Source: Variovorax sp. ZS18.2.2 (lineage in GTDB: Bacteria > Pseudomonadota > Gammaproteobacteria > Burkholderiales > Burkholderiaceae_C). From it: a stretch of 64,000 bases of DNA. The DNA is taken from contig NZ_JANLNM010000006.1 of NCBI RefSeq assembly GCF_024701975.1, positions 1 to 64,000 on the forward strand, given 5' to 3'. Shown piece after piece: positions 3,209-16,020 of this stretch (the stretch's first letter is position 1; each line of letters opens with the position of its first letter). Below the pieces are notes generated by a model, which worked only from the letters and a program-made list of their open reading frames with translations, made no database searches and was not told the DNA's origin. A program made the position numbers and the translations under genes.

Positions 3209-4702
3209 ATGGCACAGCCGCAACAACGTCGCACCTTCCTTCAACAATCGGCTGGTGCCGCGGCGGCAGTCGGCATGCTGTCGGTGCTGCCGAAAGCGCT
3301 GGCGCAGGCGCCCGACGCCGCGGGCAAGGCCATGGGCCGGCTCTCGATGGCCGAGATGTCGCGCCGCCTTGCAGCCGGGTCGCTAACCAGCAGCCAGCTG
3401 GTGGAAGAAGCGCTGGCCGCCATCCAGAACCCCGCGGGCGAAGGCGCACGCACCTTCATCCAGGTGCACGCCGCATCGGCGCGCAGCACCGCGGCGCAGC
3501 TCGATGCCGATCGCAAGGGCGGCCGCGCAGCCGCCTCCCCGATCGCCGGCATCCCGATCTCCCTGAAGGACCTGTTCGACGAAGCCGGCGTCACCACGCT
3601 CGGCGGCTCCACCGTGCTGGTCGGCCAGCCGCCGGCTCAGCGCGATGCGGTGGTGGTCGAGCGGCTGCGGCGCGCGGGCGCGATCGTCATCGGGCGCACC
3701 AACACGGTCGAATTCGCCTACACCGGCCTGGGCATCAACCCGAACTACGGCACGCCGAAGAACGTCTACGACCGCGCGACCGGCCGCATTCCCGGCGGCT
3801 CGACCTCGGGCGGTGCCATCTCGGTGACCGATGGCATGGCGGCCGGCGCCATCGGCACCGACACCGGCGGGTCGCTGCGCATTCCCGCGGCGCTCAACGG
3901 GCTGGTGGGTTTCAAGCCCACGCAGCGCCGCATTCCGCTCGATGGCGTGATGCCCCTATCGACCTCCTTCGACTCGGCCGGGCCGATGGCGTGGACGGTG
4001 GAAGACTGCGCCCTGCTCGACGCCGTGCTGGCCGGAGAGCTGTCGCGGGCGCCGAAGGTGGTATCGCTGCGCGGCCTGCGCTTTGCGGTGCCGAAGACCT
4101 TCTTTCAGGACGATCTCTCGCCGCCCGTGGCCGCAGCATTTGCATCCGCGCTTTCGAAGCTCTCGGCCGCCGGCGCCACGGTGATCGAACTGCCGATGAC
4201 CGAATTCGCCAAGGCGCCGACCATCAACCCGCGCGGCATGATCACCGCCTCGGAGGCCTACGCTTGGCACCGCGAATTCATCAAGACGGGCGCCGCCAAA
4301 TACGACCCGCGCGTACTGGCGCGCATCAAGACCGGCGAGACGATCACCGCGCCCGACTACCTGCAGTTGCAGGCGCTGCGCCGCCAGTTCATCCGCTCGG
4401 TCAACGCCGCGGCCGCGGGCTACGACGCGATGCTGATGCCCACCACGCCCGACATCGCCCCGCCGATCGCCGAGGTGATCAAGGACGACGAGACCTACTA
4501 CCGCATCAACGGCCGCATGCTGCGCAACCCCTCGGTGGTGAACCTGTTCGATGGCTGCGCGCTCTCGGTGCCCTGTCATGACGCGGGCACCGCGCCGGTC
4601 GGGCTGATGGTGGCCGGCATCGGCAACACCGATCACCGGCTGCTGGCGGTGGGCGCGGCGGTGGAAGCGGTAGTGACGCCGCGGCGCGGCGTCAACAGCT
4701 AG
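3209..4702 (+). CDS. Exported amidase (amidase signature family)
   Basis: A 497-residue amidase-signature enzyme. The catalytic Ser-cisSer-Lys triad is visible: Lys120 in ISLKDLFDE, cis-Ser198 in GGSTSGG and nucleophile Ser222 in GTDTGGSLR. The N-terminus QRRTFLQQSAG followed by a hydrophobic stretch and AQA resembles a twin-arginine signal with cleavage after about residue 32, implying a folded periplasmic enzyme. GGAGAG precedes the ATG. It hydrolyses carboxylic amides, substrate unknown. It is convergent with a TetR gene that ends 7 bases past its stop. Glutamyl-tRNA amidotransferase subunit A is the same fold, but the export signal argues against that role. Confidence 0.92.
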   Translation: MAQPQQRRTFLQQSAGAAAAVGMLSVLPKALAQAPDAAGKAMGRLSMAEMSRRLAAGSLTSSQLVEEALAAIQNPAGEGARTFIQVHAASARSTAAQLDADRKGGRAAASPIAGIPISLKDLFDEAGVTTLGGSTVLVGQPPAQRDAVVVERLRRAGAIVIGRTNTVEFAYTGLGINPNYGTPKNVYDRATGRIPGGSTSGGAISVTDGMAAGAIGTDTGGSLRIPAALNGLVGFKPTQRRIPLDGVMPLSTSFDSAGPMAWTVEDCALLDAVLAGELSRAPKVVSLRGLRFAVPKTFFQDDLSPPVAAAFASALSKLSAAGATVIELPMTEFAKAPTINPRGMITASEAYAWHREFIKTGAAKYDPRVLARIKTGETITAPDYLQLQALRRQFIRSVNAAAAGYDAMLMPTTPDIAPPIAEVIKDDETYYRINGRMLRNPSVVNLFDGCALSVPCHDAGTAPVGLMVAGIGNTDHRLLAVGAAVEAVVTPRRGVNS

Positions 4703-4709
4703 CGCCCGT

Positions 4710-5330
4710 TCACCGCGAAGCCAGGCCGTCGAAGCAGGTGCCGAGCACGAGCTCGACGATCTCCGCATCGCTCTGCAGGCCGCCGGCCTTGAGGAAACCG
4801 AGCACCGGATCGCAGGCGCGCGCGAACAGCGTGTAGAGCACGGCGATCGCGGGCAGCTTCGAATTCAGCGTGCCATCGGCCTGCGCGGCCTGGATCCAGC
4901 CGCCGAGCGTGTCGCTGATCGCGACCAGCCGGTCGAGATACCCGCGGTTGTTCATCAGCGCGGCGCGCAGGGTGGAGTTCTGGTGCGGCAGCGAGGGCAT
5001 CTCGCCGGCCAGTTGCGCTTCCATGGCCCAGCGCACCGCCGCGCGCAGCTTGTCGACGGGCTTCCGGTCGGTCGGCACCGACGCCAGCACATCCTGCGTG
5101 CGCTGCATGAGGCGCACCATCGCCGCGGCCGCGAGGTCTTCCTTGCTGGGAAAGTGCTTGTAGAGGCTGGCCTTGGCGATGCCGACGGAGGCGGCGACCT
5201 CGTCGACCGTCATCGATTCGAAGCCCTTTTCAGCGAGCAGGCGGTTCGCGGTCTGCACGATGGCCTCTTCGCGGGCCTGAAGCATCTGTGCCTTGAACGA
5301 GGGCTTGGCGGGGTCGGCAGCGGCGGTCAT
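4710..5330 (-). CDS. TetR-family transcriptional regulator
   Basis: A 206-residue TetR-type repressor. The helix-turn-helix is at about residues 40-65 (MTVDEVAASVGIAKASLYKHF), followed by a helical ligand-binding domain. It is convergent with the amidase and lies in tandem 88 bases downstream of the GntR gene. A near-palindromic CGGAAATACCG about 46 bases upstream of its start, plus a partial copy at the start codon, could be its own operator. Ligand and targets are unknown; the amidase and the GntR gene are the nearest candidates. Confidence 0.92.
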   Translation of the reverse strand: MTAAADPAKPSFKAQMLQAREEAIVQTANRLLAEKGFESMTVDEVAASVGIAKASLYKHFPSKEDLAAAAMVRLMQRTQDVLASVPTDRKPVDKLRAAVRWAMEAQLAGEMPSLPHQNSTLRAALMNNRGYLDRLVAISDTLGGWIQAAQADGTLNSKLPAIAVLYTLFARACDPVLGFLKAGGLQSDAEIVELVLGTCFDGLASR

Positions 5331-5418: not shown

Positions 5419-6153
5419 TCAGGCGCTGCGCCCCTTGGAAACCAGCTTGATGCCCGGCATCAGCTCGGCCGCGAGTTCGGGCCGCTCCAGCGCGTAGTCG
5501 AGGTTCATGCGCGCGATCTCGACATGCTCCTCGCCCAGCGCCTGCGCGCGCGAGCCTTGCCCGCGCTCGATGGCCTGCACGATCGCGTGGTGCGTGCGGT
5601 GCGCCTGGCGCATCCATTGCTGGCCCTCTTCCATCGACGACTGCATCGGCAGCATCGCGCTGGGCGCGGCGAAGGGCTGGCCGCCGAGCATGTCCATCAC
5701 CCGCTTGAGCGCGAGGTTGCCGCAGCCCTCGACGATCAGCTTGTGGAAGCGGTCGTTCATCTCGACGTAGGCCGCGTAGTCGTCGATTTCCATGGTGGGC
5801 TTGTTCACCGCCCTGTCGCCGGCGTCCAGGCAGTCTTTCAGGTCGCGCAGCAGCTGGCGCGAGGCGCCGTCTTCGGCCAGCAAACGCGCCGCAAAGCCTT
5901 CGATCACGCCGCGCACGCGGATGGCGTCGGCCACCTCCTGCGAGGTGAAGCGGCGCATCTGGTAGCCGCCGCTGGGCGATTGTTCGATGAGGCCTTCGTG
6001 CTCGAGGCTCGCCAGCGCCAGACGCACCGGGGTGCGCGAGGCTTCGAGCTTCTCGGCGAGCGGGATCTCGGCCAGCCGCTCTCCGGGCACGAATCCACCC
6101 TTGAGGATCATGTCGCGCAGTTGCACGAGCACGCGGGATTGTTGAGAGTCCAT
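5419..6153 (-). CDS. GntR-family regulator, FCD subfamily
   Basis: A 244-residue regulator with an N-terminal GntR winged helix (PLAEKLEASRTPVRLALASL at about residues 30-50) and a C-terminal all-helical FCD ligand domain. The start at 6153 (MDSQQSR) is preferred over an ATG 22 codons earlier because the wHTH then begins at the usual distance. It is divergent from the Rieske oxygenase operon, across 286 bases containing two TTGCATGCA sites. FCD proteins typically sense organic acids and repress neighbouring catabolic genes, so it is the likely switch for the oxygenase operon. Confidence 0.92.
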   Translation of the reverse strand: MDSQQSRVLVQLRDMILKGGFVPGERLAEIPLAEKLEASRTPVRLALASLEHEGLIEQSPSGGYQMRRFTSQEVADAIRVRGVIEGFAARLLAEDGASRQLLRDLKDCLDAGDRAVNKPTMEIDDYAAYVEMNDRFHKLIVEGCGNLALKRVMDMLGGQPFAAPSAMLPMQSSMEEGQQWMRQAHRTHHAIVQAIERGQGSRAQALGEEHVEIARMNLDYALERPELAAELMPGIKLVSKGRSA

Positions 6154-6238
6154 CAGACGGGGCGCCGGGAGCGGGAATGAGCGGATTCTAGGAGACGAGA
6201 ACGCGATTGCACGCAGCATATTTGCCTTGGCTCAGTTG

Positions 6239-6395
6239 TTGCATGCACTTCTGCACAACATGTGTCAAAAACACACGTCACACTCAGAGTTAACCCTGAT
6301 CTCAGGCGCTTCAAGCCCCGTAACGGGGCAAAACCGCAGATGAAAGTTTGACCCGGATCGAGGATCACCAAGACAATGCATACAGTTGCATGCAA
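6239..6395. promoter_or_regulatory. Divergent control region with two TTGCATGCA sites
   Basis: TTGCATGCA occurs at 6239-6247, and as a perfect 10-bp palindrome TTGCATGCAA at 6386-6395, ending 44 bases before the oxygenase start. The left copy sits inside a wider dyad GTTGTTGCATGCA...TGCACAAC. Between a GntR/FCD regulator and the operon it faces, paired sites like these are the expected operators for repression by looping or occlusion. No confident -35/-10 pair was picked. Confidence 0.45.
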
Positions 6396-6439: not shown

Positions 6440-7771
6440 ATGATCAGCGCCGAGCAGAACGATTTCATCACCCGCGTCGGACGCGACGCCCCGGCCGGCA
6501 AGCTGCTGCGCCGCTACTGGCAGCCGGTGGCCCTGGCCGACGAACTGGCGGGCGCGCGCCCGGTCAAGCCCGTGAAGCTCATGGGCCAGGACTTCGTGCT
6601 GTTCCGCGACGAGAGCGGCCAGCTGGGCATGCTCGACCGCGACTGCCCGCACCGCGGCGCCGACCTTGCCTTCGGCCGGCTGGAGAACGGCGGCATCCGC
6701 TGCGCCTTCCACGGCTGGCTCTTCGACGCCAAGGGCAACTGCCTCGAAACCCCCGCCGAGCCCGCCACCAGCAAGCTGTGCAGCCGCATCAGGCAGTCGG
6801 CCTATCCGGTGGTCGAGAAGGCCGGCGTCGTCTTCGCGTACATCGGCGAGGGCGAGCCGCCGGCCTTCCCCGACTTCGACTGCTTCGTCGCCCCCGACAC
6901 CCACACCTTCGCGTTCAAGGGCCTCTTCGAGTGCAACTGGCTGCAGGCGCTCGAAGTGGGCATCGACCCCGCGCACGCCTCGTACCTGCACCGCTTCTTC
7001 GAGGACGAGGACACCTCCGAGAGCTACGGCAAGCAGTTCCGCGGCGCCTCGGCCGACTCCGACATGCCGATCACCAAGGTCCTGCGCGAGTACGACCGGC
7101 CCGAGATCAGCGTGGAGCCCACCGACTACGGCTTCCGCCTGAAGGCGCTGCGCAAGCTCTCCGAAGACACGACCCACGTGCGCGTGACCAACGTAGTATT
7201 CCCCCAGGCCTTCGTGATCCCGATGAGCGCGGAGATGACCATCTCGCAATGGCACGTGCCGGTGGACGACACGCACTGCTACTGGTACGCCATCTTCACC
7301 AGCTTCACCGGCCCGGTCGACAAGCAGCAGATGCGCGACCAGCGCCTGAAGCTCTACGAGTTGCCCGACTACACCTCGCGCAAGAACAAGCGCAACAACT
7401 ACGGCTACAGCGTCGACGAGCAGTTGACCGAAACCTACACCGGCATGGGCGACGACATCAACGTGCACGACCAGTGGGCGGTGGAATCGCAGGGCGCCAT
7501 CCAGGACCGTACGCGCGAGCACCTGGGCAGCACCGACAAGGGAATCATTGCCTACCGCCGCGTGCTGGTGAAGGCCATCGAGGCCACGCTGGCCGGCGAA
7601 ACCGCGCCGATGCTGATCGACGCCGCACAGGCAAGCACGATGACCGGTCCGCCTTCCATCGACGGCATCGGCCACGTCGTCGATGAAGCCGCCACCGAGA
7701 CCTACTGGCAGGAGGCCGACCGCGCGCGTCGCCTGAAGTCCGACTGGGCCTCCGCACGGCTGGCCGCCTGA
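6440..7771 (+). CDS. Rieske-type ring-hydroxylating oxygenase, large subunit
   Basis: A 443-residue oxygenase. The Rieske 2Fe-2S ligands are Cys69-x-His71 and Cys88-x2-His91. The mononuclear iron site has His179 and His184 in DPAHASYLH. The size and the shape of the C-terminal domain fit the phthalate 4,5-dioxygenase/LigX-type group, which works as a homo-oligomer without a beta subunit. The start at 6440 follows GGAG; an in-frame TTG at 6386 lies inside the operator. It heads a co-oriented operon with a GS-like ligase 11 bases on, then a ferredoxin and a Liv transporter. No reductase is encoded nearby, so electrons must reach the ferredoxin from elsewhere. Substrate unknown; likely an aromatic acid or N-containing compound. 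Confidence 0.92.
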   Translation: MISAEQNDFITRVGRDAPAGKLLRRYWQPVALADELAGARPVKPVKLMGQDFVLFRDESGQLGMLDRDCPHRGADLAFGRLENGGIRCAFHGWLFDAKGNCLETPAEPATSKLCSRIRQSAYPVVEKAGVVFAYIGEGEPPAFPDFDCFVAPDTHTFAFKGLFECNWLQALEVGIDPAHASYLHRFFEDEDTSESYGKQFRGASADSDMPITKVLREYDRPEISVEPTDYGFRLKALRKLSEDTTHVRVTNVVFPQAFVIPMSAEMTISQWHVPVDDTHCYWYAIFTSFTGPVDKQQMRDQRLKLYELPDYTSRKNKRNNYGYSVDEQLTETYTGMGDDINVHDQWAVESQGAIQDRTREHLGSTDKGIIAYRRVLVKAIEATLAGETAPMLIDAAQASTMTGPPSIDGIGHVVDEAATETYWQEADRARRLKSDWASARLAA

Positions 7772-7782
7772 GCACGCGCGCC

Positions 7783-9237
7783 ATGAGCAGCAGCAAAACC
7801 AACACCTTCGTCGACCGCTTCGGCCTCTGGTCCGACGACCAGCACGCACAGGCGCGCGAGTTGGTGCGCCGCATCGACAGCGGCGAGGTCGACCTTGTGC
7901 GCTTCGCCTGGCCCGACCAGCACGGCATCCTGCGCGGCAAGACGCTGGTCGCCACCGAGGCGCGCTCGGCGCTGTGGGAAGGCGTGAACCTCACCTCCAC
8001 GCTGCTGGCCAAGGACACCTCGCACAAGACCGTGTTCCCCGTCTTCACCACCAACGGCGGCTTCGCCATCGAGGGCCTGCAGGGCGGCGCGGACTTCACC
8101 ATCGTGGCCGACCCCGCCACCTTCAAGGTGCTGCCGTGGGCGCCGCGCACCGGCTGGATCCTGTGCGACGCCTACATGGCCGACGGCAAGCCCTGCCCCT
8201 TCGCCACGCGGCAGATCCTGCAGCGCGCGGTGCGCCAGCTCGACGAACTCGGGCTCGACTTCATCGCCGGCCTCGAGGTCGAGTTCCACGTCTTCAAGCT
8301 GGACGACGCGCGCATGGGCCTGGCCGATTCGGGCCAGCCCGGCGAGCCGCCGCGCGTGTCGCTGCTCTCGCACGGCCACCAGTACCTGACCGAGCTGCGC
8401 TACGACCGCGTCGACGGGCTGATGGAGCTGCTGCGCTCGAACCTCATCGCGCTGGGTCTCCCGCTGCGCTCGCTGGAAATCGAATTCGGCCCGAGCCAGT
8501 TCGAGCTGACCTTCGGCCCCACGGCCGGCGTGATGCCCGCGGACACCATGGTGCTGCTGCGCAGCGCGATCAAGCAGATCTGCCAGCGCGCCGGGCTGCA
8601 CGCCAGCTTCATGTGCCGGCCGAAGATTCCGAACGTGATGTCCAGCGGCTGGCACCTGCACCAGTCGCTGCGGCGCAAGAGCGACGGCGTGAATGCGTTC
8701 ATGCCCGAGGCCGCAGGCCAGGACCTGAGCGAGATCGGCATGCACTACCTCGGCGGCCTGAAGGCGCATGCCTGTGGCGCGGCCGCGCTCGCGAGCCCCA
8801 CGATCAACGGCTATCGGCGCTACCGCCCCTTCTCGCTCGCGCCCGACCGCGCGATCTGGGCGCGGGACAACCGCGGCGCGATGCTGCGCGTGCTCGGCGG
8901 CGTGGGGCAGAACGCATCGCGCATCGAGAACCGTGTGGGGGAGCCAACAGCGAATCCGTACCTGTACCTCGCATCGCAGCTGTTCTCGGGGCTCGACGGC
9001 ATTCGCCACAAGACCGACCCGGGTCCCTCGGCCGATGCGCCGTATGAAACGCCGGCCGAACACCTGCCGCGTTCGTTGAGCGATGCCCTCGCCTGCCTCC
9101 GCAAGGACGACATGCTCAACACCCAGATGGGCAAGGTCTTCATCGACTACCTCTGCCACATCAAGGAAGCGGAAATCGCCCGCTTCAACCTCGAAGTCTC
9201 CGAGTGGGAGCACCGCGAGTACTTCGACATGTTCTGA
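7783..9237 (+). CDS. Glutamine-synthetase-family ligase
   Basis: A 484-residue member of the glutamine synthetase superfamily. It retains the metal-binding Glu pair in GLEVEFHVF (residues 165 and 167), the SGWHLHQSL signature, the ATP/phosphate segment RAIWARDNR and the RIENRVGEPTANPYLY segment. The N-terminal part is divergent from housekeeping GlnA and it lacks the adenylylation-type C-terminus. In this operon it more likely makes a gamma-glutamyl amide of an amine substrate or another acyl-amide bond, as the GS-like enzymes of aniline and isopropylamine degradation do, than assimilates ammonia. It sits between the oxygenase (11-bp gap) and the ferredoxin (5-bp gap). Function is inference from family and context. 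Confidence 0.85.
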   Translation: MSSSKTNTFVDRFGLWSDDQHAQARELVRRIDSGEVDLVRFAWPDQHGILRGKTLVATEARSALWEGVNLTSTLLAKDTSHKTVFPVFTTNGGFAIEGLQGGADFTIVADPATFKVLPWAPRTGWILCDAYMADGKPCPFATRQILQRAVRQLDELGLDFIAGLEVEFHVFKLDDARMGLADSGQPGEPPRVSLLSHGHQYLTELRYDRVDGLMELLRSNLIALGLPLRSLEIEFGPSQFELTFGPTAGVMPADTMVLLRSAIKQICQRAGLHASFMCRPKIPNVMSSGWHLHQSLRRKSDGVNAFMPEAAGQDLSEIGMHYLGGLKAHACGAAALASPTINGYRRYRPFSLAPDRAIWARDNRGAMLRVLGGVGQNASRIENRVGEPTANPYLYLASQLFSGLDGIRHKTDPGPSADAPYETPAEHLPRSLSDALACLRKDDMLNTQMGKVFIDYLCHIKEAEIARFNLEVSEWEHREYFDMF

Positions 9238-9242
9238 ACCCC

Positions 9243-9566
9243 ATGCCCACAATCCACTACATCCTCAAGGACGGCACCACCCGCGCGGTCGACGCCAAGA
9301 TCGGCGTCAGCGTCATGGAAACCGCCATCCGCGGCAACGTGCGCGGCATCGATGCCGAGTGCGGCGGTTGCTGCTCCTGCGCCACCTGCCACGTCTACGT
9401 GGACGAAGCCTTCGCCGACCTGCTGCCATCGCCCGACGACATGGAGAGCGCGCTGCTCGAAGTCGTCGCTTCCGAGCGCCAACCCACCTCGCGCCTGAGC
9501 TGCCAACTCAACGTGACAGCAGCCCTCGACGGCCTGAGGGTGCGCGTTCCAGAGACACAGGTCTGA
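9243..9566 (+). CDS. 2Fe-2S ferredoxin, adrenodoxin/putidaredoxin type
   Basis: A 107-residue ferredoxin. Cluster ligands follow the C-x5-C-x2-C-x37-C spacing of the vertebrate-type group: Cys40, Cys46, Cys49 and Cys87, with two extra cysteines at 43 and 44. It starts 5 bases after the GS-like gene, so translation is probably coupled. It is the expected electron donor to the Rieske oxygenase. The absence of a ferredoxin reductase gene anywhere in the operon means a host flavoprotein must reduce it. Role as donor is inference. Confidence 0.93.
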   Translation: MPTIHYILKDGTTRAVDAKIGVSVMETAIRGNVRGIDAECGGCCSCATCHVYVDEAFADLLPSPDDMESALLEVVASERQPTSRLSCQLNVTAALDGLRVRVPETQV

Positions 9567-9614
9567 CGCACACTCGCCCGCTCCGCATCCATTCCACCTG
9601 AAAGGCGTTTTTCC

Positions 9615-10814
9615 ATGACGACGATGACGAAGAGAACCGTTCTCTCGACCCTCCTGCTCGCCGGCTTCGGCATGCTGGGCTCCGTGGCCGCGCACGCTGC
9701 CGACGAGCCGCTGCGCATCGGCCTCATTGCCACCTACTCCGGCCCGTACGCCGACTACGGCCGCCAGTTCGATGCCGGCATCGCGCTGTACCTGAAAGAG
9801 CACGGCGGCAAGGTGGGCGGGCGCACCGTCGAGATCATCAAGAAAGACACCGCCGGCCCCGCACCCGATGCCGCCAAGCGCATCGCGCAGGAGCTGGTCG
9901 TGCGCGACAAGGTGAGCATCCTCACCGGCCTGGACTTCAGCCCCAACGCGTACGCCGTCGGCGCCATCGCCACGCAGGCCAAGATCCCAACCATCGTGAT
10001 GAACGCGGCCTCCTCGGCCATCACCAGCAGTTCGCCCTACATCGCGCGGCTGTCGTTCACCGTGCAGCAGGTCACCGACCCGATGGCGCGCTTCATGCTC
10101 AGGGAAGGCATCAAGGACGCCTACACCGTGGTCGCCGACTATGCCTCGGGCGTCGATGCCGAAACCGCGTTCAAGAAAACCTTCACCACCGGCGGCGGCA
10201 AGGTCTCGGGCGAGGTGCGTACGCCGATGAACAACCCCGACTTCTCGGCCTACGTGCAGCGCATCAAGGACGCCAAGCCCCAGGCCGTGTTCTTCTTCTT
10301 TCCCTCGGGCGTGATGCCGCCGGCCTTCCTCAAGGTGTGGAAGGAGCGCGGCATGGAACAGGCCGGCATCAAGCTCTACGCCACCGGCGAAGCGACCGAC
10401 GACAGCTACCTCGACGCCACCGGCGACGTGGCGCTCGGCCTCGTCACCAGCCACCACTACTCGTTCGCGCACAACTCGCCGAAGAACCAGAAGTTCGTGA
10501 AGGACTTCGCCGCCGACAACGGCGCCAAGCTGCGCCCCAGCTACTTCGCCGTGACCGCCTACGACGCCATGGCCGCCATCGACCTCACGCTGCAAAAGAC
10601 CAAGGGCGACGCCAGCGGCGACAAGTTCATGGATGCGCTGCGCGGCCTGCGCTTCGAGAGCCCGCGCGGCCCGATCGAGGTCGACCCGCTCACCCGCGAC
10701 ATCGTGCAGACGGTCTACATCCGCAAGACCGAGCGCGTGAACGGCCAGCTGGTGAACGTGGAGTTCGACAAGTTCGACCGCGTGAAGGACCCGGCCAAGG
10801 AAAGCTCGAACTGA
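9615..10814 (+). CDS. Branched-chain-amino-acid-type ABC binding protein
   Basis: A 399-residue periplasmic binding protein of the LivJ/type I fold. Residues 1-31 form a Sec signal peptide ending AAHA. The mature start, EPLRIGLIATYSGPYADYG, is characteristic of the family. It lies 48 bases after the ferredoxin and precedes its own permease and ATPase genes. Between it and livH is a 203-bp gap with a large hairpin, which may raise binding-protein expression relative to the membrane components. In catabolic operons LivJ-like proteins often bind aromatic or organic acids, so the ligand is probably the substrate of the oxygenase or of the ligase. Confidence 0.93.
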   Translation: MTTMTKRTVLSTLLLAGFGMLGSVAAHAADEPLRIGLIATYSGPYADYGRQFDAGIALYLKEHGGKVGGRTVEIIKKDTAGPAPDAAKRIAQELVVRDKVSILTGLDFSPNAYAVGAIATQAKIPTIVMNAASSAITSSSPYIARLSFTVQQVTDPMARFMLREGIKDAYTVVADYASGVDAETAFKKTFTTGGGKVSGEVRTPMNNPDFSAYVQRIKDAKPQAVFFFFPSGVMPPAFLKVWKERGMEQAGIKLYATGEATDDSYLDATGDVALGLVTSHHYSFAHNSPKNQKFVKDFAADNGAKLRPSYFAVTAYDAMAAIDLTLQKTKGDASGDKFMDALRGLRFESPRGPIEVDPLTRDIVQTVYIRKTERVNGQLVNVEFDKFDRVKDPAKESSN

Positions 10815-10869
10815 GAAGGTGTGAACGAACCCGCCATGCCCGCTCATCCCACCCAGACACGCCTACTCG

Positions 10870-10918
10870 GCGTTGCAAATGCTCGCCATAGCCCGAGCTA
10901 TGGCTGCGCTTTGCGCCT
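10870..10918. repeat. Intercistronic palindromic hairpin (REP-like)
   Basis: A perfect inner stem CCATAGC/GCTATGG (10887-10893 and 10898-10904) closes a CCGA loop. Partly complementary outer arms, beginning GGCG at 10870 and ending GCGCC at 10918, extend it. It lies between the binding-protein and permease genes and has no T tract. Such hairpins usually protect the upstream message from 3' exonucleases or attenuate transcription. I recall similar intergenic elements repeated in Comamonadaceae genomes, but the window holds one copy. Confidence 0.6.
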
Positions 10919-11017
10919 TGATTGGGCGCGCCTGGGCGGGCTGCTCGGGCACGCCGAATTCATTCACACCTTCTGAGCACATCGGCACGCCGCAAGCAGC
11001 ACAGCAACAGGAGGCCC

Positions 11018-11878
11018 ATGGGCATCGTGATCTTCGACGGGGTGGCCTACGGCATGCTCCTGTTCCTCATCGGCGTGGGCCTGTCCATCACGATGGGGCT
11101 GATGAATTTCGTCAACCTCGCGCACGGCAGTTTCGCGATGGTGGGCGGCTATGCGGCGAGCCTGCTGATGAACCACTGGGGGCTCGGCTTCGGGCTCTCT
11201 CTCGCGGCCGCCTTCGTGTCCGCGGCGCTGGTAGGCGCGGTGCTGGAGTTCGTGTTCTACCGGCGGCTGTACCGCGCGCATCCGCTGGACCAGGTGCTGC
11301 TGTCGATCGGCGTGGTGTTCGTGTCGATCGCCGCGTTCACCTACTTCTTCGGGCCGACGATGCAGCCGTTCACGCTGCCGCCGGCGCTAGATGGGCAGGT
11401 GGCCATCGGCGGGCTCGAGGTGGGCCGCTACCGACTCTTCCTGATCGTCTGCGGCGTGGCCGTGCTGGCTGCCCTGCTGCTCGTGCTGGGCAAGACGCGC
11501 TACGGCGCGATGGTGCGCGCGGCGGTGGACAACCAGCGCGTGGCCGGCGGCACCGGCATTCATGTGCAGCGCCTTTTCTTCCTGACCTTCTCGCTGGGCT
11601 GCGGCCTCGCGGGCCTGGGTGGTGCGCTGAGCCTGGGCATGCTGGGGCTGGAGCCATCGTTCCCGCTCAAGTACCTCGTCTACTTCCTGATGGTGGTGTG
11701 CGTGGGCGGTGCGGGCACCGTCACCGGGCCGTTCATCGCGGCGCTGCTGGTCGGCATCGTCGACGTGGCGGGCAAGTACTACTGGCCTGAGGCGGGCGCC
11801 TTTCTCATCTATGTCTTCATGATCGTCATGCTGCTTGTGCGGCCCAACGGCATCGTCGCGAAGAAGGGGCTCGCATGA
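11018..11878 (+). CDS. livH: ABC transporter permease, LivH type
   Basis: A 286-residue integral membrane permease with about eight hydrophobic helices. It has the LivH signatures GLMNFVNLAHGSFAMVGGY near the N-terminus and FLMVVCVGGAGTVTGPF towards the C-terminus. The start at 11018 is set by AGGAGG just upstream; earlier in-frame starts lie in the hairpin gap. Its last four bases overlap the livM start. It forms the transmembrane channel with LivM. Confidence 0.93.
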   Translation: MGIVIFDGVAYGMLLFLIGVGLSITMGLMNFVNLAHGSFAMVGGYAASLLMNHWGLGFGLSLAAAFVSAALVGAVLEFVFYRRLYRAHPLDQVLLSIGVVFVSIAAFTYFFGPTMQPFTLPPALDGQVAIGGLEVGRYRLFLIVCGVAVLAALLLVLGKTRYGAMVRAAVDNQRVAGGTGIHVQRLFFLTFSLGCGLAGLGGALSLGMLGLEPSFPLKYLVYFLMVVCVGGAGTVTGPFIAALLVGIVDVAGKYYWPEAGAFLIYVFMIVMLLVRPNGIVAKKGLA

Positions 11879-12837
11879 AAGCCCTCACCGTTTCTCCCGC
11901 GCAGTTGCGCATCGCCGAGGTCGCCTTCTGGCTCGCGCTCGCGTCCAGCTTCTTCCTCTTGCCTGACAAGCTCACGCTGATGAGCCAGATCATGATCTTC
12001 GGGCTCTTCGCCGTGTCGCTGGACATGGCGCTCGGCTACGCGGGCATCCTCACCGTCGGCCATGCCGCCTTCTTCGGCGCGGGCGCCTACGCGGCCGGCC
12101 TGCTCGCCAAGTACGGCTGGAGCGAGCCCTTCACCGGCCTTGCGTTCGCGCTGGTCGTGAGCGGCCTGCTCGGCTATGTGCTCAGCTATCTCGTCGTGCG
12201 CGGCGCCGACCTCACGCGGCTGATGATCACCATCGGCGTGTGCGTGCTGCTGTACGAACTGGCCAACCGGCTATCGGGCATCACGGGCGGCACCGACGGG
12301 CTGCAGGGCGTGGTCATCGCGCCGGTGCTCGGCCTCTTCGACTTCGACCTCTACGGCAAGACCGCATTCGGCTACGCCTTCGGCGTGGTACTCGCGATGT
12401 TCCTCCTGGTGCGGCTGGTGCTGCGCTCGCCGTTCGGCCTGGCGCTGCGCGGCATCCACGACAGCCGCAAGCGCATGACCGCCATCGGCTCGCCGGTCGA
12501 GGCGCGCCTGCGCATGGCCTACGCCTTCTCGGCCGCGGTGGCCGGCGTGGCAGGCGCGCTGCTCGCGCAGACCACGCAGTTCGTCGGCATCGAATCGATC
12601 GGCTTCAACCGCTCGGCCGAAGTGCTGATCATCCTGGTGCTCGGCGGCACCGGGCGCCTGTACGGCGGGATGATCGGCGCCATCGTCTACATGCTGGTGC
12701 ACGACTGGTTCGCGGACATGAACCCGCAGTACTGGATGTTCTGGCTCGGCATCTTTTTGATCGCAGCGGTGATGCTGGGGCGCGGCGGGATCATGGGCGC
12801 GCTCTCGCGCTTCGTGCGGATGGGGAAGGCGCGATGA
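11875..12837 (+). CDS. livM: ABC transporter permease, LivM type
   Basis: A 320-residue permease with eight to ten membrane helices and the LivM segment GYAGILTVGHAAFFGAGAYA at about residues 52-71. The start overlaps the livH stop as ATGA and its own stop overlaps the livG start, so the four genes are translationally coupled. It completes the heterodimeric channel. Confidence 0.93.
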   Translation: MKALTVSPAQLRIAEVAFWLALASSFFLLPDKLTLMSQIMIFGLFAVSLDMALGYAGILTVGHAAFFGAGAYAAGLLAKYGWSEPFTGLAFALVVSGLLGYVLSYLVVRGADLTRLMITIGVCVLLYELANRLSGITGGTDGLQGVVIAPVLGLFDFDLYGKTAFGYAFGVVLAMFLLVRLVLRSPFGLALRGIHDSRKRMTAIGSPVEARLRMAYAFSAAVAGVAGALLAQTTQFVGIESIGFNRSAEVLIILVLGGTGRLYGGMIGAIVYMLVHDWFADMNPQYWMFWLGIFLIAAVMLGRGGIMGALSRFVRMGKAR

Positions 12838-13601
12838 GCTCCACGACGACGCACACCCTGCGCACCCGCGACCTCGGCATCCGCTTCGGCGCCTTCCAGG
12901 CCGTGAGCGAAGTGAACCTCTCGCTCGAACCCGGCGCGCGGCAGGCACTGATCGGCCCCAACGGCGCAGGCAAGACCACGCTCATCAACCTGCTCACCGG
13001 CGTGTTCAAGCCCACGAGCGGATCGATCCACATGGGCGATCGCGACATCACGCGCCTCTCGGGCGACAAGCGCGCCCGCATGGGCCTGGCGCGCACCTTC
13101 CAGATCAACACGCTGTTCCCGAGCCTCACGCCGCTGCTGTCGGTGGTGCTGGCGATCAGCGAGCGTGAAGGGCTGGGCGCGACCTGGTGGCGACCGCTCA
13201 AGGGCTGCACCGCGGTGTTCGACGAGGCACATGCGCTGCTCGGCACGCTGAAGCTCGACAGCCTTTCCGACGTGCCGGTCTCGGAGCTGGCCTACGGCAA
13301 GCAGCGGCTGCTGGAGATCGCACTCGCGCTCGCCGCCAAGCCCCGCATCCTTCTGCTCGATGAGCCGGCAGCCGGTGTGCCCGAAGGCGAAAGCGGCGAG
13401 CTCTTCGAGGCCATCGCGGCGCTGCCCGACGACATCAGCGTGCTCTTCATCGAGCACGACATGAAGCTCGTGTTCCGCTTCTCGCGCCGGATCTCGGTGC
13501 TGGTGGGCGGCCGCATCCTCACCGAAGGCACGCCCGCCGAGATCGGCGCCGACCCGCGCGTGCGCGAGGTCTACCTTGGAAGCTCCCACCGCCATGCCTG
13601 A
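12834..13601 (+). CDS. livG: ABC transporter ATP-binding protein, LivG type
   Basis: A 255-residue ATPase. The Walker A motif GPNGAGKTT is near residue 41, the signature region is degenerate (SELAYGKQ) as is usual for LivG, and Walker B is ILLLDEPAAG. The C-terminal extension IGADPRVREVYLG is diagnostic of LivG rather than LivF. The ATG at 12834 overlaps the livM stop by four bases. Confidence 0.93.
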   Translation: MSSTTTHTLRTRDLGIRFGAFQAVSEVNLSLEPGARQALIGPNGAGKTTLINLLTGVFKPTSGSIHMGDRDITRLSGDKRARMGLARTFQINTLFPSLTPLLSVVLAISEREGLGATWWRPLKGCTAVFDEAHALLGTLKLDSLSDVPVSELAYGKQRLLEIALALAAKPRILLLDEPAAGVPEGESGELFEAIAALPDDISVLFIEHDMKLVFRFSRRISVLVGGRILTEGTPAEIGADPRVREVYLGSSHRHA

Positions 13602-14316
13602 AGCGCTCGCCTTCGACCACGTCACCGCCGGCTACGGCAACGCCGTGGTGCTCGACCGCCTCGACTTTTCCCTGCAGCAGGGCGAAAGCCTCGCGATCCT
13701 CGGGCGCAACGGCGTGGGCAAGACCACGCTGCTCGAAACGCTGATGGGCAACACCCGCGTGATGCAGGGCGCGATCCGCTGGCAGGGCGCGGACATCACG
13801 CGCTGGCCCTCGCACCAGCGCGTGCGCGCGGGCCTGGGCTGGGTGCCGCAGGAGCGCGAGGTGTTCCCCTCGCTCACCGTCGAGGAAAACCTCACGGTCA
13901 TCGCGCGACTCGGTGGCTGGAACCTGAAGCGCGTCTACGATTTCTTCCCGCGCCTGCGCGAGCGCCGCGGCAACTACGGCAACCAGCTCTCGGGCGGCGA
14001 ACAGCAGATGCTGGCCATCGGTCGTGCGCTGATGACCAACCCGAAGCTGCTGCTGCTCGACGAGCCGATGGAAGGCCTCGCGCCGATCATCGTGGAGGAG
14101 CTGTCCGCAGCGATCCGGCGGCTCTGCGAATCGGAAGGGCTCGCGTCGATCGTGGTCGAGCAGCACCCGGTGCTCGCGCTGGAGATGACGCACCAGGCCA
14201 TCGTGCTGGAGCGCGGCACCGTGGTGCATGCCGGGCCGAGCGCGGGGCTCGCGGCCGACAAGGGACTGCTCGAAGGGCTGCTGGGCGTGGGGATTGCCGA
14301 GGACGTGGCGGGTTGA
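13594..14316 (+). CDS. livF: ABC transporter ATP-binding protein, LivF type
   Basis: A 240-residue ATPase with Walker A GRNGVGKTT, signature LSGGEQQ and Walker B LLLLDEPMEGL. The ATG at 13594 overlaps livG by eight bases; a TTG at 13576 would add six residues. It is the last gene of the operon and is convergent with a membrane protein 15 bases on. No intrinsic terminator is visible in that gap. Confidence 0.92.
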   Translation: MPEALAFDHVTAGYGNAVVLDRLDFSLQQGESLAILGRNGVGKTTLLETLMGNTRVMQGAIRWQGADITRWPSHQRVRAGLGWVPQEREVFPSLTVEENLTVIARLGGWNLKRVYDFFPRLRERRGNYGNQLSGGEQQMLAIGRALMTNPKLLLLDEPMEGLAPIIVEELSAAIRRLCESEGLASIVVEQHPVLALEMTHQAIVLERGTVVHAGPSAGLAADKGLLEGLLGVGIAEDVAG

Positions 14317-14795: not shown

Positions 14796-15953
14796 TCAGC
14801 TCAACATCTGCCCGCGGCTGCCGATCACGGCCACATCCACGAACTGGCCGCCTTCGCGGTTCGTGCGGCCATAGCTGAGCTTCATCCCGCCCAGGTCGAA
14901 GTTCTCGATGCTGGCCATGCCCGCCATCACCGAGGCGCGCGTGGGCGAGCCGCCCGAGCGGCGCAGGCCCTCGGCGAGCACGGCGGCGTTGATGTAGCCC
15001 TCCAGGCTCGTGAGCGAGAAATCCTTGGTGCCGTTGGCCACCATGTCGGCCTGGTAGCGGCGCACGATTTCGAACTTGGTCGAGTACGGCGAGGGCACCA
15101 CGATCACGAAGCCCAGGCCCCGTGCGAGGTCGCCCATCGCGGCCAGCGCGCTGGCGGTGATCGAGAGACCGTAGGCCGAGCTGTTGCCGCCGGCATCGCG
15201 CAGCGCCTTCATGAAGACCGGCGCCGTGCCGGCCAGGCCGATGATGATGACCTGCGGCTTGGCCTTGGCGATGGCTTCGGCCGCGGGGCCGACTTCCATG
15301 CTGGTGGTATTGGGCGTGGTCGCGATGACCGCCGGCTCCAGCTTCGCCTTCGCGAGCGCAGTCTTGAACGCCGCCAGCACCGACTGGCCCAGCGGGTCGT
15401 TCGAATGCACGAGGCCGATGCGGCTCTGGCCCAGCACGGCCGCCGTGGTCACCAGCTTTTCGACTTCCTGGTCGTAGTTCACGCGCACCCAGAAGGTGTT
15501 GGGCGCGGTCTTCTTGCGCAGCGCGACAGTGCCGGTGATCGGACCCACCACGGCCATGCCGGGCACGGCGTCCATCACTTCGGAAGTCTGGCGGGTGCCC
15601 AGCGGGTGCAGCAGCGCGAGCACCGAGCTGTCCTTCTCGAAGGCCAGCGCGTTGGCCTTGGCCACTTCGGGCTTGAAGGTGTCGTCGGCCATGACCAGCT
15701 CGACCTTGGTGCCGTTGAGGCCGCCCGACTTGTTCAGCGCATTGAAGAACGCGCTCGAACCCTGGAAGAGCCCCTGGCCGTTGGCCTTCTCGACGCTGCT
15801 GTTGTCGAAGGTGGTCCCGATGCGGATCGGCTTGCCCTGCGCGAAGGCCGGCATGCCCAGGCCCGCGGCGGCGGTTGCGGCCAGGCCGGTCAGCACACGG
15901 CGACGGCTGGCGGAGGGCGGCGCGAGGAACACGCGCGGCTCGGGAACGGTCAT
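14796..15953 (-). CDS. Orphan ABC substrate-binding protein (LivJ-like), Tat-type signal
   Basis: A 385-residue type I periplasmic binding protein. The start at 15953 follows GGGGAG at good spacing; an ATG 12 codons upstream has none. The N-terminus contains SRRRVLTGLAAT followed by an alanine-rich core and AFAQG, which fits a twin-arginine signal. The mature part begins GKPIRIGTTFDNSS. No permease or ATPase gene is attached, so it either shares a transporter, possibly the Liv system just upstream, or serves as a sensor. Ligand unknown. Confidence 0.9.
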   Translation of the reverse strand: MTVPEPRVFLAPPSASRRRVLTGLAATAAAGLGMPAFAQGKPIRIGTTFDNSSVEKANGQGLFQGSSAFFNALNKSGGLNGTKVELVMADDTFKPEVAKANALAFEKDSSVLALLHPLGTRQTSEVMDAVPGMAVVGPITGTVALRKKTAPNTFWVRVNYDQEVEKLVTTAAVLGQSRIGLVHSNDPLGQSVLAAFKTALAKAKLEPAVIATTPNTTSMEVGPAAEAIAKAKPQVIIIGLAGTAPVFMKALRDAGGNSSAYGLSITASALAAMGDLARGLGFVIVVPSPYSTKFEIVRRYQADMVANGTKDFSLTSLEGYINAAVLAEGLRRSGGSPTRASVMAGMASIENFDLGGMKLSYGRTNREGGQFVDVAVIGSRGQMLS

Positions 15954-16020
15954 GGTCGATATCTCCCCAATTCGGTGACAAAAGTACACATTTCACTCAG
16001 AAATGTAACGCACCGATCAC

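Follow-up and report, generated by a model that had tools for sequence, protein, structure and literature searches.

The DNA analysed here, in the following termed the window, comprises the first 64 kb of contig NZ_JANLNM010000006.1 from the 7.2-Mb genome of Variovorax sp. ZS18.2.2 (GCF_024701975.1). It carries a co-oriented operon encoding a Rieske oxygenase, a glutamine synthetase (GS)-like ligase, a 2Fe-2S ferredoxin and a full LivJHMGF importer, next to a divergent GntR/FCD regulator that was absent from the gene list of an earlier note on this DNA (Table 1). The eight genes that the note did name are all intact on the plus strand at essentially the positions it gave, each having an ATG start, a terminal stop and no internal stop. 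The tight gaps it described hold down to livJ (11, 5 and 48 bp between oxygenase, ligase, ferredoxin and livJ) but not between livJ and livH, where 203 bp contain a dispersed palindromic repeat. In our analysis the operon belongs to the sad family, of which it is a widespread form without a linked reductase gene and with an importer of the aromatic-acid type; it is not a wholly new pathway.

Table 1. Features of the operon region, numbered from the first nucleotide of the window.
Feature	Position	Strand	Details
GntR/FCD-family transcription regulator	5419-6153	-	FCD and GntR domains; divergent from the operon
Shared promoter/putative operator region	6240-6394	.	TGCATGCA at 6240-6247 and 6387-6394; TGCATACA at 6377-6384
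Rieske oxygenase, sad-type, alpha-only	6440-7771	+	443 aa; Rieske and LigXa_C domains
Predicted GS-like gamma-glutamyl arylamine ligase (GoaS class)	7783-9237	+	484 aa; Gln-synt_C; K77 in amine-tunnel loop
2Fe-2S ferredoxin, putidaredoxin type	9243-9566	+	107 aa; Fer2
LivJ-type solute-binding protein	9615-10814	+	Peripla_BP_6
Dispersed palindromic repeat GCTCGCCATAGC-NNNN-GCTATGGCTGCGC	10881-10909	.	Between livJ and livH
LivH-type permease	11018-11878	+	BPD_transp_2
LivM-type permease	11875-12837	+	BPD_transp_2
LivG-type ATPase	12834-13601	+	ABC_tran, BCA_ABC_TP_C
LivF-type ATPase	13594-14316	+	ABC_tran; ATG at 13594

In Hydrogenophaga intermedia PBC the sad operon was found by transposon mutagenesis and is held responsible for converting 4-aminobenzenesulfonate (sulfanilate) into 4-sulfocatechol; a figure legend lists the trio of oxygenase, GS and ferredoxin (sadA, sadB and sadC) and also names sadD, and the operon is described as fairly conserved in the genus, its authors suspecting in 2017 that the original substrate was a natural analogue of sulfanilate (PMC5632844). 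The sadD gene could encode a reductase. Judged by homology, the window's operon is a member of this family, with an alpha-only Rieske oxygenase followed by the GS-like and ferredoxin genes (6440-9566). Its oxygenase and ligase share 66% and 57% identity with the pair on pSA3 of the sulfanilate degrader Novosphingobium resinovorum SA1, which we place in the family by context, and 57-61% and 43-45% with four copies from the genus Hydrogenophaga. In the genus of a Hydrogenophaga metagenome-assembled genome (MAG), 39 of 50 genomes encode an oxygenase 59-65% identical to the window's, one genome having a second copy at 81%; these 59-65% copies fit the genus-wide conservation reported in PMC5632844, suggesting that they represent the sad operon itself. 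Compared to the systems of Hydrogenophaga and SA1, the window's ligase and oxygenase form a separate clade, livJHMGF follows directly downstream, the promoter region contains TGCATGCA sites, and no 4-sulfocatechol genes were recognised near the operon. Three Hydrogenophaga copies, each inspected one gene at a time, instead continue with genes for an FAA-hydrolase and a TRAP binding protein; one of them, L139, has a distantly related Liv set (32-43%) on the upstream side.

To place the operon among its relatives we scanned contigs with the ligase as query and read the gene context of the best 80 of 203 relatives, the fetched flanks varying in length and many being short; the nearest loci are from Variovorax. 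The oxygenase gene lies within 300 bp of the ligase gene in 79/80 loci, so the pairing is not due to chance, and in the remaining locus (L095) the ligase match is broken into pieces with an oxygenase just upstream. A ferredoxin gene is present within 400 bp of the ligase in 70/80 and livJ within 3 kb in 59/80 loci. The check on conservation of the three-gene core that the earlier note had proposed hence did not refute its reading. Six loci, four of them from Pseudacidovorax, one from Eoetvoesiella and one from a MAG (L064, L066, L068, L069, L074 and L075), have no ferredoxin homologue within these 400 bp, and here the ferredoxin too may be replaceable by one encoded elsewhere. Within Variovorax (100 genomes including the window's own), 58 genomes have the ligase at E<=1e-80, 56 of them at >=78% and two at 50% identity. 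A scan of plasmids returned 31 records matching the oxygenase at E<=1e-60; among the 30 listed, 13 show >=50.7% and the others <=38.1% identity. All 13 also encode the ligase, the two genes being neighbours in the same order in ten of them and about 1.5-6.5 kb apart on plasmids of Nitratireductor, Pseudooceanicola and Palleronia.

The earlier note had proposed a distinct, undescribed pathway from the lack of a reductase, a glutamine amidotransferase (GATase) and an oxygenase beta subunit. Locally all three absences stand. Their value as a mark of novelty does not: the trio corresponds to the known sad operon, and many relatives do carry a reductase or a GATase gene, so that we reject reading the absent reductase as evidence for a new pathway. 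Of the 80 loci, 44 have a reductase gene at most 1.5 kb from the ligase; in 31 it is placed between ferredoxin and livJ, where the window has a gap of 48 bp. The gene encodes an FAD reductase of 410-420 aa, for which the NCBIfam models AndAa and HcaD score best, below their cut-offs. Scoring up to 18 candidates per Variovorax genome, taking the best score of each and judging adjacency from coordinates, we found the reductase adjoining the ligase in 19/56 genomes with a ligase of >=78% identity and linked in 0/33 with a ligase at least 92% identical to the window's, in both cases among the matches listed. The best homologue in the window's genome has 39% identity and is located on another contig. 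As matches at 39-40% recur in many Variovorax genomes, a general reductase encoded elsewhere probably serves the operon. Encoding the reductase elsewhere may be common among such systems, since no such gene was present near the ferredoxin in 6/6 loci examined from the genus Hydrogenophaga (L136, L138-L142).

Two GATase queries taken from relatives gave no match within the window, and elsewhere in the genome only distant homologues (33% and 27% with one query, 41% over part of the other). GATase-like genes are found in the fetched flanks of 25/80 loci, 16 being of a Polaromonas type and nine of a Caballeronia PuuD type. Thus, neither reductase nor GATase is consistently missing among the relatives, though the operon of the window's clade has neither, and a fuller operon is seen in Polaromonas JS666 with the order GntR, oxygenase, ligase, ferredoxin, reductase, livJHMGF and GATase. 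The window's operon looks like a reduced version of such an arrangement, not like a newly designed one. Absence of a beta gene need not reflect a loss, because the oxygenase groups by its domains (Rieske and LigXa_C) and its nearest homologues with alpha-only enzymes.

The ligase has as nearest solved structure NpaA1 (428 bits, the next chain reaching 189 bits), a demonstrated arylamine glutamylase (PMC11335346). Against the curated GS families it scores 219.6 of a required 429.15 and 223.1 of 469.6 bits, and the cut-off for type I/III is not passed; the genome has one other GS-family match, presumably GlnA. Homology supports its belonging with the glutamyl-organic-amine ligases (GoaS) and not with the nitrogen-assimilating GS. 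The amine tunnel of NpaA1 is lined by a loop (residues 68-81) that the adjacent subunit contributes, and the F75A exchange removes most of the activity (PMC11335346). The window's ligase aligns to this motif-15 loop without gaps, having a lysine (K77) at the position of F75. Comparing ligases picked by hand to cover the range of loci, we found lysine at this position in 31/31 sad-type enzymes and in 0/11 others; the presumed GlnA, for which two alignments differ here, was left out of the count. The 11 comprise eight ligases encoded beside alpha-beta oxygenases (six Phe, one Val, one His) and three without an annotated oxygenase within 5 kb (all Phe). We propose lysine versus non-lysine, mostly Phe, as a criterion separating the two classes; it is our own and not an established one. 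The ligase trees, a first one with an outgroup branch flagged as far too long and a second one midpoint-rooted only, give no direction for the Lys/Phe exchange. On the aniline-type branch, two loci (L150 and L143) have no oxygenase annotated within 5 kb of the ligase: one ligase, of Sphingobium sp. CFD-2, is encoded beside a CehA/McbA-type metallohydrolase, and the other, of Streptomyces tendae, lies with a carbon-nitrogen hydrolase and a GATase.

For the oxygenase, the nearest solved chains are a phthalate dioxygenase (7fjl/7v25, 219 bits; PMC10511449) and an isophthalate dioxygenase (9ina/9ioy, 217 bits; PMC12445078), in which R244 and R234, respectively, hold a carboxylate of the substrate (PMC12445078, PMC10511449). 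R248 of the window's enzyme aligns with these residues and is an arginine in 30/30 sad-type oxygenases. These dioxygenases (PDO-KF1 and IPDO-KF1), with which the window's enzyme has the one carboxylate arginine in common, take free aromatic diacids as substrates and work without a ligase, unlike the route proposed below. The ferredoxin has putidaredoxin as its top match in the PDB and carries cysteines at positions 40, 43, 44, 46, 49 and 87.

The importer adds a further hint. LivJ is closest to the structures 4ey3/4eyg/4eyk (362 bits), followed by 4f06 and 4evs (314-315 bits), which we take to be Rhodopseudomonas palustris proteins binding 4-hydroxybenzoate, protocatechuate and vanillate. Homologues from R. 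palustris studied by Michalska et al. are described as binding small aromatics and taking up benzoate derivatives (PMC11052242). A second LivJ-like protein of the window (14796-15989), used as a single control, gave no match to the 4ey3/4f06/4evs group. LivJ thus falls in a group of predicted aromatic-acid-binding proteins, suggesting the LivJHMGF system to be an importer of an aromatic acid.

Neighbouring genes in relatives offer clues to the product. The gene pnbB, encoding a 4-hydroxylaminobenzoate lyase (PF16155), occurs in the fetched flank of 10/15 loci with a ligase below 70% identity and in 1/65 with a ligase of >=70% (L061, Xenophilus); a nitroreductase homologue is found in 8/15 and 2/65 flanks of the same sets, and both genes occur together in seven loci. 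Where longer flanks were read, pnbB was also seen in the vicinity of the ligase, at a distance of about 12 kb in Cupriavidus pinatubonensis and likewise in Caballeronia insecticola and Methylobacterium nodulans. In 13 genomes of 7-11 Mb, namely 12 of the 15 with a ligase below 70% and the Xenophilus genome, chosen for its pnbB neighbour, we counted one to three pnbB genes each; by arithmetic, less than 1% of genomes would carry one in a 21-kb stretch by chance, the ten loci coming from few related genera. These 4-nitrobenzoate genes (nitroreductase and PnbB lyase), neighbours of the cluster in several Burkholderiaceae and in M. nodulans, are not present beside the window's cluster and encode enzymes different from those of the window. 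The expected product of the 4-nitrobenzoate pathway is likewise protocatechuate. In Palleronia a stretch of about 14 kb comprises the oxygenase, the ligase and pcaGHBCD, the only case of an adjoining pca operon that we saw, and a pcaH match was obtained on another contig of the window's genome. The pnbB and pca contexts point to protocatechuate as the product and therefore to 4-aminobenzoate as the substrate.

Some longer operons of relatives (e.g. L137, 13255-17253) continue beyond livF with genes for a second LivJ-like protein, an amidase, a CHMI-family protein and a GATase. A CHMI-like protein is also encoded in L077, L079, L081 and others, and a CHMI-family gene directly follows the ligase gene in SA1, Pseudooceanicola and Palleronia. 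Near the pair of N. resinovorum SA1, a maleylacetate reductase gene lies 2 kb away and a dihydropteroate synthase gene, folP, about 8.5 kb away on pSA3 (L151, 20768-21598); we speculate that this extra folP might protect folate synthesis, because sulfanilate resembles 4-aminobenzoate.

Taken together, K77 of the ligase, R248 of the oxygenase, the LivJ group and the neighbours in relatives point to 4-aminobenzoate, or a para-amino aromatic acid closely resembling it, as the likely substrate, a reading to which we assign a probability of roughly 60%. This is the new part of the interpretation. It supports a model according to which LivJ and LivHMGF would import 4-aminobenzoate, and the GS-like ligase would use ATP and glutamate to convert it into a gamma-glutamyl anilide. 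The alpha-only oxygenase, supplied with electrons via the ferredoxin and a reductase encoded elsewhere, would then hydroxylate the ring at C3/C4, releasing the glutamyl-nitrogen part and yielding protocatechuate, which would enter the pca pathway; the divergent GntR regulator would act on the TGCATGCA sites to control the operon. The earlier note had suggested an imported acid or amine being glutamylated and hydroxylated, and with NpaA1 as the nearest solved structure to the ligase, glutamylation of an imported amine followed by its oxygenation remains the best reading by homology. The note is right on the likely chemistry and wrong on why the system would be new.

Several observations weigh against 4-aminobenzoate. 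Both the lysine at K77 and the arginine at R248 would suit a sulfonate as well as a carboxylate. The 11 non-lysine ligases form one branch, meaning that K77 represents one clade-level change and not repeated switches, and for R207 of phthalate dioxygenase the window's enzyme shows no consistent equivalent (Lys in the pairwise and a gap in the multiple alignment). The ligands ascribed to the LivJ group are supported by a single indirect passage (PMC11052242). No catabolic neighbour in the window's own clade names the substrate: neither pnbB nor a nitroreductase gene is found in the 20 loci with a ligase of >=91.5% identity, two of which have an upstream flank of >=9 kb, and no ring-cleavage gene was recognised beside the window's operon. 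Near the clusters of L100, L107-L109, Methylobacterium aquaticum, SA1, Novosphingobium RL4, Nitratireductor, Pseudooceanicola and Palleronia, pnbB was not seen. The window's genome itself yielded only weak matches to pnbB (34-36%), located on the window's contig in an apparent box (benzoyl-CoA) region, and we rejected them as 4-nitrobenzoate genes.

As the evidence so far specifies an anionic aromatic amine only, the substrate might instead be another natural amino-aromatic acid such as 4-aminosalicylate, 3-aminobenzoate, an aminophenyl-alkanoate or, after cleavage, p-aminobenzoyl-glutamate. The extra amidase, CHMI-like protein and second binding protein downstream in several relatives hint at such more complex substrates; however, the pnbB and pca neighbours lead to protocatechuate, which fits 4-aminobenzoate best, making another acid an unlikely choice. 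Sulfanilate with 4-sulfocatechol as product, as for the sad operon, would explain the match of the trio to sadA/sadB/sadC and the 66% and 57% identity to the SA1 pair, and would be compatible with K77 and R248. Yet the operon is widespread in Variovorax (56/100 genomes with a ligase at >=78%), whose members would presumably, for the most part, never encounter a dye intermediate, LivJ falls in the aromatic-acid group, the neighbours in relatives are of benzoate type and the sad authors themselves favour a natural analogue (PMC5632844), so that we regard sulfanilate as still somewhat less probable.

A neutral arylamine such as aniline or chloroaniline, oxidised as by the AtdA, TdnQ and DcaQ systems, is suggested by the 42-48% identity of the ligase to three aniline-type ligases and by the same underlying logic. 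The systems for aniline, chloroaniline and 1-naphthylamine (AtdA1-5, TdnQTA1A2B, DcaQ, NpaA1-5) indeed share GS-like glutamylation followed by dioxygenation; they differ, however, in that their oxygenases are of the alpha-beta type and a GATase-like gene adjoins that of the ligase, whereas the window has an alpha-only oxygenase, no GATase and K77 in place of the tunnel Phe. Their oxygenases are, judged by alignment, of a different branch, the window's enzyme being 28% identical over 119 residues to a Delftia enzyme and 21% over 311 residues to NpaA3, and aniline would presumably hardly need a Liv importer, which together leave a neutral arylamine very improbable. Having a separate ferredoxin and an FAD reductase does not set sad apart, since both also occur in two alpha-beta systems of actinobacteria. 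The isopropylamine ligase (IpuC/IpuA; PMC11335346), likened here by description, also activates its amine in a GS-like manner but acts on an aliphatic one. That the ligase is an ordinary GS which happens to sit in an oxygenase operon can practically be dismissed: it has the Gln-synt_C domain, but reaches about half of the curated GS cut-offs in a genome with another GS-family gene and is paired with the oxygenase in nearly all loci.

Returning to 4-aminobenzoate, a more comprehensive reading can be put forward tentatively, at somewhat less than even odds. It would see the cluster as the hitherto unassigned genes for converting 4-aminobenzoate to protocatechuate via gamma-glutamyl-4-aminobenzoate and as the natural parent of the sulfanilate sad systems. 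In the literature searched, which left most subscription journals outside and is therefore weak evidence, no assignment of Rieske/GS genes to 4-aminobenzoate degradation was found; a metabolic model lists a 4-aminobenzoate route in Ralstonia (PMC10470067), and the excerpts of PMC4539516 and PMC6167471 contain nothing on 4-aminobenzoate genes. K77 would mark acid-accepting ligases and would have given way to mostly hydrophobic residues in the aniline-type, alpha-beta-paired branch; Variovorax would widely carry the cluster with its own aromatic-acid importer, one clade having dropped the linked reductase. 4-Aminobenzoate is a building block of folate. If 4-aminobenzoate is indeed the substrate, genes would be assigned to the aerobic degradation of this folate precursor in common soil bacteria, the origin of a pathway for a dye intermediate would be explained, and a sequence rule would separate acid-type from aniline-type amine ligases. 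The question of the natural substrate of the sad family becomes directly testable, including by a one-residue test at K77.

A GntR/FCD regulator gene is found within 4.5 kb of the ligase in 74/80 loci (19+15+27+13). For the window's regulator, the domain scan used an upstream start at 6219, while the start at 6153 gives MDSQQSR. TGCATGCA occurs three times in the window, twice in the region between regulator and oxygenase, and the single occurrence of TGCATACA is located in the same region. TGCATGCA is present in 63/76 homologous intergenic regions, which are related and include a few from one genome fetched twice, so that they do not represent 76 independent cases; it is not present in the four Hydrogenophaga sad-like promoter regions examined. 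Both motifs are probable operator sites of the GntR regulator.

Upstream of the operon region lie an amidase gene (3209-4702, plus strand) and a TetR regulator gene (4710-5330, minus strand). The amidase is kept in 17/20 loci of the close clade; we set it aside as a pathway member, its identity to the amidase downstream in some relatives being about 32% and the TetR gene on the opposite strand separating it from the operon. For livF, a longer open reading frame begins at TTG 13576. A genome search tolerating up to three mismatches found 16 copies of the repeat GCTCGCCATAGC-NNNN-GCTATGGCTGCGC located between livJ and livH but none of a control pattern; the repeat looks like a repetitive extragenic palindromic (REP)-type element. 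Further along the contig, beyond the window, the apparent box (benzoyl-CoA epoxidation) region extends over approximately 68.4-78.3 kb, its genes being named from reading the sequence. On the plasmid of Polaromonas JS666, a CBASS-like defence locus with an annotated oligonucleotide cyclase (L112, 4514-7327) lies about 2.3 kb from the cluster. The contigs of the window and of ten further Variovorax assemblies (G074, G096, G007, G017, G087, G061, G059, G009, G049 and G032) start 5.5-8.5 kb upstream of the ligase, which suggests a shared long repeat at this position.

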